Below are positions 4,056-5,798 of a DNA stretch of 5,978 nt, piece after piece. The DNA is taken from NCBI GenBank assembly GCA_002841685.1, contig PHAM01000085.1:1-5978 (forward strand), in the 5' to 3' direction. How positions within the stretch are numbered: position 1 is the stretch's first letter; every line of letters begins with the position of its first letter. Source of the stretch: Elusimicrobia bacterium HGW-Elusimicrobia-2 (GTDB taxonomy: Bacteria; CG03). The notes under the pieces are model-generated. The model was not told the origin of the DNA. It did not search any database and saw only the letters and a list, made by a program, of their open reading frames with translations. The translations under genes were made by a program, and so were the position numbers.

Positions 4056-4106
4056 AAATTCTCCTTATTTATTGAAACCACCTTCAGGCATCTCGTCTCT
4101 TTTATC

Positions 4107-4136
4107 ATTATTCTTAATTATTTCCCGCTGAGTCAA
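4107..4136 (-). promoter_or_regulatory. Probable sigma-70-type promoter of ssnA
   Basis: On the minus strand TTGACT (4131-4136) and AATAAT (4107-4112) are separated by 18 bp. The predicted start near 4100 gives a leader of about 45 bases ending in the AAGGAG site (4061-4066) before the ATG at 4055. The -35 box is only about 19 bp past the ATPase stop codon, so ssnA need not depend on the upstream gene. No intrinsic terminator separates the two. Confidence 0.6.
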
Positions 4137-4154
4137 GGTGCGTCATTTAAAAAT

Positions 4155-5276
4155 CTATAAAAACAAATTCTTGAAATATTTATCCGCCCGGACAAGCTCA
4201 ATTCCACCGGCGGTCCTTTCTCTTTTCAATTCTCTCACAATCTGCCTGCCTTTCAAATTATATTTCCCACAGAAATATTTCAGATTCTCAGATATATTTG
4301 AATCACGGAATTTCACTTCAATCGCTTCTTCTATATTGTTATTGCTTGCAATACAAAAATCCACTTCTTTGCCTTCTTTTGTGCGAATATATTTTAATGC
4401 GCAATCCTCGCCTTTATAATCGACTCTCCCGTATAAATATTTTAACAGGCTCAATGCCGCGAAGTTTTCGAATTTTGCGCCGGCATCTCCTTCCACAAGC
4501 CCGTTATCAAAAAAATAGATTTTTGGTTCTTTCAATATTGACCGCGCGATATTTTTTGAATACGGGTTAACCCTGAAAACTATGTATAAAGCTTCAAGTA
4601 TCTGAATGTATTTGATCACTGTTGTCGGAGAAATACTAACATCACGCGCGATAGATGCATACGATACCGGTGACCCAACCCTGGCCCTGAGAAGTTCAAA
4701 AACCATCCTGATAGCTTTAAAATCATGTATCCTTTCAAAATCAAGTATGTCTGACCGGATAAGGCCATCTGTGCACTGACCCCTCCAGCGTTTCGCGTCA
4801 ATATCCGTTTTTGCAAGAAAAGGCTCCGGAAAACCGCCCCTGCTGATAAACCGCTCTATATCATCGCCAAGAGGATTATCCCGCAATTCGGAAATTGAAA
4901 AAGGCAGAAGCCTGTGAGTAAAAAATCTTCCCGCAAGAGAATCCCCTCCCTGCCTGAAAATATCGAGCCGCGCGCTGCCGGTGACAAGTATTTTGAGGGG
5001 CTTGGCCTTAGTATCAAAAACTCCTTTCAGATAATTTTTCCATCCCTGCATTTTATGCAGTTCGTCTAAAATTAATAATTCCGTTGATTGCGGCCAGCTC
5101 TCGTCTTCTATTATTCGCCTGTCCTGGAAACTGTCGTAATTCAAATAAACCGTATTATTGAAATGTTTGCCTGTTTCATGAGCCAGCCATGTTTTGCCAA
5201 CTTGGCGCGGGCCTACAATAAAAACAATTTTTTTATTGAGGTCTTTAACTATTTGTTTAATTTGCCGTCTGTACAT
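4155..5276 (-). CDS. AAA_14-type ATPase with C-terminal DUF4143 domain
   Basis: The protein has 373 residues from the ATG at 5276 (378 from an upstream GTG at 5291). The N-terminal ATPase core carries the Walker A motif GPRQVGKT (residues 22-29), the Walker B motif ELLILDELHK (66-75), a sensor-like strand KILVTGSARLD (95-105) and GGDSLAGRFFTHRLLPFSISEL (110-131), typical of this family. A winged-helix-like segment SPVSYASIARDVSISPTTVIKYIQ (202-225) follows. The C-terminal DUF4143 region has EVDFCIA (304-310) and AIEVKF (318-323), a D...ExK arrangement like PD-(D/E)XK nuclease folds. These single-gene ATPases are widespread in bacteria and archaea and have no established function; links to DNA transactions or conflict systems are speculative. 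The ATG is preferred because the GTG lies upstream of the -10 box, and homologues generally begin with a short M-(Y/I)-(K/R)-R-like segment just before the Walker A motif. No Shine-Dalgarno sequence precedes either start. The gene appears intact. Confidence 0.9.
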   Translation of the reverse strand: MYRRQIKQIVKDLNKKIVFIVGPRQVGKTWLAHETGKHFNNTVYLNYDSFQDRRIIEDESWPQSTELLILDELHKMQGWKNYLKGVFDTKAKPLKILVTGSARLDIFRQGGDSLAGRFFTHRLLPFSISELRDNPLGDDIERFISRGGFPEPFLAKTDIDAKRWRGQCTDGLIRSDILDFERIHDFKAIRMVFELLRARVGSPVSYASIARDVSISPTTVIKYIQILEALYIVFRVNPYSKNIARSILKEPKIYFFDNGLVEGDAGAKFENFAALSLLKYLYGRVDYKGEDCALKYIRTKEGKEVDFCIASNNNIEEAIEVKFRDSNISENLKYFCGKYNLKGRQIVRELKRERTAGGIELVRADKYFKNLFL

Positions 5277-5282
5277 ACGACT

Positions 5283-5310
5283 ATTATACACACAAATGGA
5301 TAAAAGTCAA
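5283..5310 (-). promoter_or_regulatory. Near-consensus promoter of the ATPase gene, predicted leaderless
   Basis: On the minus strand TTGACT (5305-5310), a 16-bp spacer and a perfect TATAAT (5283-5288) precede AGTCGT and the ATG at 5276. A start 6-8 bases past the -10 box falls on 5277-5275, that is, on the ATG itself. No ribosome binding site is present. The boxes are read directly; leaderless transcription is inferred from the spacing. Confidence 0.78.
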
Positions 5311-5319
5311 GACTATTTT

Positions 5320-5338
5320 CCATTTCACTGCGAAATGG
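5320..5338. repeat. Perfect inverted repeat between the zf-TFIIB gene and the ATPase promoter
   Basis: CCATTTC-ACTGC-GAAATGG has 7-bp perfect arms and a 5-base loop. It lies 10 bp upstream of the ATPase -35 box. On the minus strand it is followed by AAAATAG, not a T-run, and on the plus strand by TCGTGTCC, so it does not look like an intrinsic terminator in either direction. It could be a regulator site or part of a dispersed element together with the neighbouring hairpin at 5342-5367. Confidence 0.6.
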
Positions 5339-5341
5339 TCG

Positions 5342-5367
5342 TGTCCGCTCCGCGCTTTAGCCGGACA
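5342..5367. repeat. Second hairpin downstream of the zf-TFIIB gene
   Basis: TGTCCGCT (5342-5349) pairs with AGCCGGACA (5359-5367), giving 8 base pairs with one bulged C around a 9-base loop. It begins 9 bp after the zf-TFIIB stop codon and is separated from the inverted repeat at 5320-5338 by only three bases. It has no following T-tract on the minus strand, so a factor-independent terminator is not supported. It might still protect the 3' end of the message. Confidence 0.5.
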
Positions 5368-5375
5368 GACAAAAA

Positions 5376-5798
5376 CTATTGCGGCGAAAACTTTCCCGCT
5401 TCTATTAAAAACAATTCTATCGCTATTAATTCTTCTTCCGCTTTTTCTTTCAGTTTTTCTATCCAGGTCGCGCACGCCTCATGTATGGCTTTGAGTTCCC
5501 CCGCATCCAGCCACAGCCCGTCGCATTCGGAACAGACATCCACCTTGATGCCGCTTTCCTGCGCGTATTCTATGGTGTGCAGCGCTTCATCGCATCGCGG
5601 ACATTTCAATTCGCCCCGATAACTTTTTGACACGGCGCAGGTGATGCCAGAATCCAGCTTGAACCAGTCTTTCTGTTTTTTGATTTCTTTCAGCTCGTCC
5701 TTATCAAACCAGAACCCGCCGCAGCTTTCGCACTTATGGTAAACGACATCTGCGAAAATTCCCTCAGTCAAAACTTTTTTACATTTCGGACAATCCAT
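5376..5798 (-). CDS. Tandem zf-TFIIB-type zinc ribbon protein
   Basis: This small cytosolic protein (140 residues) has two copies of the zf-TFIIB zinc ribbon. The first uses Cys3, Cys6, Cys23 and Cys26 (MDCPKC ... CESCGGFWFDKDEL). The second uses Cys66, Cys69, Cys89 and Cys92 (KCPRCDEAL ... CSECDGLWLDAGEL). Each would bind one zinc ion. Residues 103-140 form a predicted charged helix (WIEKLKEKAEEELIAIELFL). The CxxCxGxWxDxxEL signature defines the family, which is common in bacteria but has no assigned role; nucleic acid or protein binding is a guess. The start is supported by AGGAG at 5805-5809, six bases before the ATG. The next gene downstream on the same strand is the ATPase, 99 bp away and with its own promoter, so the two are probably separate transcription units. 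No clear -35/-10 pair was found upstream; TTGTTT with AATAAT is only a weak candidate. Confidence 0.9.
   Translation of the reverse strand: MDCPKCKKVLTEGIFADVVYHKCESCGGFWFDKDELKEIKKQKDWFKLDSGITCAVSKSYRGELKCPRCDEALHTIEYAQESGIKVDVCSECDGLWLDAGELKAIHEACATWIEKLKEKAEEELIAIELFLIEAGKFSPQ

Follow-up and report, generated by a model that had tools for sequence, protein, structure and literature searches.

Single-gene phage defence candidates of the class PDC-S01 (COG1373, or AAA_14-DUF4143) have been described as fusions of an ATPase and a PD-(D/E)XK domain that undergo cross-domain transfer; 29,494 bacterial and 9,986 archaeal members were counted, PDC-S01 was ranked fourth by frequency among the defence systems of prokaryotes, and the defence activity of most PDCs was described as unvalidated (PMC12988326). 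Leaderless genes have been studied in other settings. Specifically, acuR of Rhodobacter sphaeroides is leaderless by RACE and represses itself at an inverted repeat in its promoter (PMC3017554), lambda cI (from PRM) and tetR of Tn1721 are older leaderless autoregulated genes cited in that same report, and bacterial leaderless genes have been surveyed computationally (PMC3160421). In the open-access literature, we found no description of a promoter or operator for the AAA_14/DUF4143 family, nor of a leaderless start.

Here, we analyzed the window, a stretch of 5,978 nucleotides of contig PHAM01000085.1 from Elusimicrobia bacterium HGW-Elusimicrobia-2, and we consider it probable that its AAA_14/DUF4143 gene is a mobile, self-repressing and leaderless single-gene cassette. 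The gene and the elements at its start are as follows.

4155..5276, minus strand: AAA_14-wHTH-DUF4143 ORF of 373 aa, PADLOC class PDC-S01 (Pfam, PADLOC, homologue starts)
5274..5276, minus strand: ATG start codon, also the predicted +1 of transcription, 6 nt past the -10 box, N terminus conserved in homologues
5283..5288, minus strand: -10 box TATAAT, within the right arm of palindrome R2 (reading and scan; position kept in the family)
5305..5310, minus strand: -35 box TTGACT, located where the two palindromes join (reading, scan, half-site alignment)

Read directly on the minus strand, TTGACT (5310-5305) is followed by a 16-bp spacer, TATAAT (5288-5283), the bases AGTCGT and the ATG (5276-5274), which is exactly the geometry given in the original prediction, and the TTGACT/TATAAT pair is the top promoter-like site of the window by scan (11/12 matches). 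No Shine-Dalgarno (SD)-like motif was present in the 18 nt 5' of this ATG, as had been noted, and the AGGAG-type sites said to precede most other minus-strand starts were found at the SsnA-like (AAGGAGAATTTATG) and Zn-ribbon (ATAGGAGAAACAAATG) genes. The gene had been called an exception, which holds within the window but not within the AAA_14/DUF4143 family, where the layout is typical. Across its own genome (1.78 Mb), the pattern TTGACN-N15-17-TATAAT-N5-7-ATG has 6 matches vs. 0 for the reversed pattern; AAA_14/DUF4143 genes follow two of the six promoters, and the genome holds 8 DUF4143 matches in total. A chance match as the source of the promoter geometry is ruled out by this genome-wide control together with the family survey below. 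Translation from an in-frame GTG at 5291 is also ruled out, as this codon overlaps the -10 box and lacks conservation in relatives, and an MxR motif located ~21 residues N-terminal to Walker A and common to aligned relatives supports the ATG at 5276 as the start. Elsewhere in the same genome (L043:541-1503, C53), a perfect near-ATG promoter, overlapped by direct repeats GGGAATCCCGGTA, also precedes a HATPase_c_2 gene (320 aa), which is possibly another leaderless self-operated gene.

The family sample combined own-genome paralogues, relatives from other genomes and a set of 80 close relatives whose organisms are named (41-73% identity). We surveyed 207 distinct AAA_14/DUF4143 genes having enough upstream DNA, using 346 other ORFs of the same loci as control. 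A strict sigma-70 promoter, defined by at least 9 of 12 matches and an end 5-8 nt before the start, precedes 51% of the family genes vs. 2.6% of the neighbouring ORFs, with a peak at gap 6, and about half of the family does not pass this strict test. Such promoters occur in 52 of 86 close members and 54 of 121 other members, and near-ATG promoters were seen in every homology bin (19-69%). When the -10 box alone is sought at this distance under a relaxed definition, it is found in 67% of genes vs. 18% after shuffling. SD-like motifs are rarer in the family (13.5%) than in control ORFs (38%, a lower bound because control starts are first-ATG guesses). The alignment of homologues proposed along with the original prediction showed that the promoter-ATG distance is kept across phyla (gap 6 in 66/207, gap 7 in 26/207), and a homologue N terminus upstream of the -10 box was looked for as a refutation; the conserved N terminus begins at the ATG. 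In bacterial promoters, a pyrimidine is expected at position -1 when the A of the ATG is +1, and 78% of the family carries one.

One could argue that the gene has a leader after all, with a true start further upstream and a near-ATG promoter that is decorative or weak. A few relatives do have leaders (L046, ~40 nt; L049, operator ~90 nt upstream; L050, SD-led), and the upstream palindrome gives promoter-like matches at gap 38-39 in 13 of 78 family genes. However, gaps of 6 (37 genes) and 7 (16 genes) dominate among the 78 (53/78), where shuffled upstream regions yield ~0.45 genes per gap position, and the depletion of SD sites and the pyrimidine bias at -1 also speak against a leader, which makes this explanation highly improbable. 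We conclude that the near-ATG promoter and the leaderless start predicted from it characterize the family and are not an isolated case. For the window gene, the conserved promoter-ATG gap, the N terminus at the ATG and the pyrimidine at -1 support the leaderless mRNA originally predicted, and we regard a leaderless start as very likely on these sequence grounds. Leaderless mRNAs are, by textbook reasoning, translated through 70S initiation and may behave differently under stress, as the prediction had added. Phd/YefM antitoxin genes were considered as a leaderless control class, among which few were placeable; those looked SD-led and were too few to count. On the Rhabdochlamydia oedothoracis plasmid NZ_CP075588.1 (L265:2501-2549), the RefSeq start of WP_245397626.1 lies 16 codons past the conserved leaderless ATG, likely a misannotation caused by the absent SD, and this shift illustrates how automated annotation can misplace starts that lack an SD.

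Two larger findings, both absent from the original prediction, are a tandem palindromic operator and an insertion. The promoter is embedded in a conserved operator made of two tandem 30-bp palindromes, i.e., GACTATTNTGCA-N6-TGCANAATAGTC, then TT, then a repeat of GACTATTNTGCA-N6-TGCANAATAGTC. In the window, its two halves are as follows.

5279..5308, minus strand: operator palindrome R2, GACTTTTATCCA-N6-TGTATAATAGTC, ending 2 nt before the ATG (half-site alignment, 64 loci)
5311..5340, minus strand: operator palindrome R1, GACCATTTCGCA-N6-TGGAAAATAGTC (half-site alignment, 64 loci)

In most of ~60 close relatives, which represent 14 named phyla, the operator stops 2-4 nt short of the ATG. The -35 box consists of the junction TT plus GACT and the -10 box sits in the last operator arm. 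The gene's promoter and its dyad operator overlap, the two 30-bp palindromes lying over the -35 and -10 boxes. Each operator contains four 12-bp half-sites; their positions 8, 10 and 11 differ between loci and agree within one locus far more than under permutation (z mostly 3.4-9, 64 loci). A 13-bp core, AATAGTCTTGACT, occurs 4 times in 12 whole genomes, each time before a family gene, vs. 0 for the reversed control. A genome-wide regulon is ruled out, as these four are the only sites of the core motif across the 12 genomes. A degenerate two-arm pattern gave no match in the gene's own genome, the arms of the window being too diverged for the pattern. Since the predicted transcript begins downstream of the palindromes, a DNA-binding protein is favoured over RNA structure and an RNA hairpin reading is disfavoured. 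Other family branches have different dyads at the same place, where best-dyad scores are also above shuffles, including a TACTCGCGAGTA palindrome before a TTGACA-like box in one sub-lineage (L168, L173, L180, L184, L199, L201) and a TGGACAAATTG..CAATTTGTCCA dyad in L142. On a Candidatus Bandiella plasmid (L266:1492-2514), the AAA and DUF4143 parts of a relative are found on two CDSs, and the AATAGTCTTGACT core is kept ~70 nt upstream.

The encoded protein comprises an AAA+ ATPase, a winged helix and a PD-(D/E)XK domain, and belongs to the PDC-S01 class. Pfam recognizes both DUF4143 (7.5e-29, 101 bits, cut-off 28.1) and AAA_14 (3.8e-26, 92.1 bits, cut-off 27) in the one ORF, and PADLOC returns PDC-S01 as best match (2.4e-57), a class that all 70 members of our alignment (A2) also match. 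Its parts map to the window as follows.

5190..5213, minus strand: Walker A GPRQVGKT, residues 22-29 (G22, P23, R24, Q25, G27 and K28 invariant, 70 homologues)
4563..4721, minus strand: winged helix-turn-helix, residues 186-238, with recognition helix 217-229, proposed operator reader (AF2 model; operator-protein covariation)
4158..4559, minus strand: DUF4143, PD-(D/E)XK nuclease-like domain, residues 240-373 (invariant residues, domain model, structure comparison)

Walker B (LLILDE, residues 67-72) is intact and conserved. The AF2 model (mean pLDDT 92.5) consists of an AAA+ domain, a winged helix with helices at 186-198, 206-213 and 217-229, and a C-terminal alpha/beta domain. In the latter, D306, E320 and K322 (D...ExK) are invariant in 70 sequences, and the matches listed for the domain model are largely PD-(D/E)XK nucleases (Can1/Can2, McrC, EcoT38I, NgoMIV, Hjc), with a best Z of 8.7 and weak Foldseek E-values. 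Residues 1-264 have 2qen and 2fna as best structural matches (Z 14.4 and 14.3, rmsd 3.3-3.4 over 241-243 residues), and a PDB sequence search with the protein gave no match. Given its class, the window gene may serve in phage defence.

We then asked the alignments which part of the protein varies together with the operator. With overall protein similarity held constant, operator position 11 best tracks segment 216-230, i.e., the recognition helix, among 358 segments (partial r = 0.35, maximum of 200 permutations 0.21), and for the outer positions 1-4 the tracked segment is 195-209, which belongs to the same winged-helix domain (r = 0.38 vs. 0.28 by permutation). Tracking does not point to the winged helix for position 8 alone, position 10 alone or positions 5-7. 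A test on phylogenetically independent pairs, which has little power, placed columns 218, 222, 210 and 207 among the top ones. It is conceivable that the mRNA is leaderless and that a host regulator or another protein reads the operator instead of the AAA_14 protein, for which one could cite the weak independent pairs and the positions (5-7 and 8) that do not track the winged helix. Yet the operator core was found before AAA_14/DUF4143 genes only (12 genomes), and it occurs in at least 14 phyla, a spread that a host factor would have to equal, and position 11 tracks the recognition helix better than any other segment; we consider an outside reader quite unlikely. Self-recognition of the operator by the protein is the likely reading of this covariation, and the gene quite probably represses itself through the winged helix.

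The second larger finding concerns the presence or absence of the whole unit at a precise site.

4075..5376, strand not applicable: indel comprising operator, ORF and short flanks (L236 alignment; absent from same-genus G003)

In G003, the Zn-ribbon gene is directly followed by the SsnA-like gene (CGCCGCAGTAAATAAGGAGAATTTATGAGC), where the window holds ~1.3 kb extra. This empty site is complemented by sharp ends in two 94% identical copies from two genomes (L051 and L073), whose common DNA is confined to -72 to +28; in pairs that are 75-85% identical, constraint alone could produce sharp homology ends. The mobile unit is likely limited to operator plus ORF, on the basis of one empty site and one near-identical pair. 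L051 (a Desulfobacula MAG) and L073 (a 'Proteobacteria' bin) carry the same two adjacent ATPase genes in swapped order. A second variable spot of the window, at 2047-2714, is a Phd/YefM-ParE-like toxin-antitoxin stretch that does not align to G003 while both of its sides do. Over a tree of close relatives (55 named rows), we counted 26 phylum changes for a minimum of 13, and several sampled genomes have about 30-46 candidate family places each; in G149, G174, G370 and G058 these number 34-46 per genome, some of them clustered on one contig. Overall, the arrangement recurs in relatives from 14 or more bacterial phyla, and it appears to move together with the gene as a minimal cassette under its own control.

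Mobility also raises the question of what the palindromes are for. They might mainly serve the movement of the cassette, as a site that is recognised or processed in the manner of a transposon end or nuclease target, with promoter hexamers of secondary importance and expression control as a side effect. The moved unit begins at the left end of the operator, the protein has a predicted nuclease fold, and the same-genus genome G002 has a solo palindrome at the matching intergenic position, all of which would suit this explanation. Against it, no matching palindrome lies at the 3' end of the unit, the -35/-10 spacing and the ATG distance are kept as in a working promoter, and there is only one clean empty site; we therefore rate it as unlikely. 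The solo palindrome of G002 (GACTATTTTCCATTATACTGCAAAATAGCC, L237 at ~2903-2932, between the Zn-ribbon and SsnA-like genes) is operator-like and without a gene, being either a remnant or a non-autonomous copy. The operator plus ORF unit encodes no transposase or recombinase, and the nuclease domain could serve in its transposition. A bolder proposal is that PDC-S01 is a minimal selfish element, made of one leaderless gene and a tandem palindrome read by the gene's own product. A single protein would then repress itself, recognise its own end by the winged helix and use the PD-(D/E)XK domain in its own movement. We hold this to be unlikely; if true, leaderless translation would be an adaptation to work in any bacterial, perhaps archaeal, host.

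Under the mobile, self-repressing cassette that we favour, a ~64-bp operator-promoter and one ORF would suffice for regulated expression. The winged helix of the protein would bind the gene's own two tandem palindromes, and bound protein lying over the -35 and -10 boxes would block RNA polymerase, keeping its own level low. On a free promoter, transcription would begin at the ATG or within about one base of it, giving a leaderless mRNA at whose 5'-terminal AUG ribosomes would initiate. Because no outside element such as a host SD context or an upstream promoter is needed, the cassette would be expressible wherever it is inserted, and this independence from host signals fits its spread over many phyla. 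Our results suggest that selection may favour leaderless, self-operated expression in genes that hop between distant hosts. PDC-S01 comprises tens of thousands of genes without an established mechanism, for which the conserved operator abutting the start codon offers a concrete handle, i.e., a defined 64-bp site and a predicted transcript start, and the recognition helix offers a way to predict operator specificity.

Among known systems, the published accounts of PDC-S01 consulted here concern the same sequence class as the window gene and are silent on promoter, operator and leaderless start. By fold, residues 1-264 resemble the archaeal AAA+-winged-helix ATPases PABY2304 (2qen) and SSO1545 (2fna), a likeness seen only by structure. 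AbiE, a type IV toxin-antitoxin system, is a mobile module for defence that regulates itself negatively through several inverted repeats, traits that are predicted for the window cassette; AbiE differs in having two genes and an unrelated antitoxin repressor (PMC7319586). The acuR-acuI-dddL operon shares near-consensus -35 and -10 boxes adjoining the ATG and an inverted-repeat operator in the promoter (PMC3017554), and the leaderless start and self-repression reported for acuR are those predicted for the window gene. In contrast, AcuR is a TetR-family repressor of an operon, with acrylate as inducer and one 8-bp inverted repeat (PMC3017554), whereas the window has a single AAA+ nuclease-like gene and two 30-bp palindromes. 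Lambda cI and Tn1721 tetR, as cited there (PMC3017554), also reside on mobile DNA and are autoregulated with a 5'-terminal AUG, features predicted for the window gene; they appear in that source as isolated cases, whereas here the architecture is conserved in a family across many phyla.
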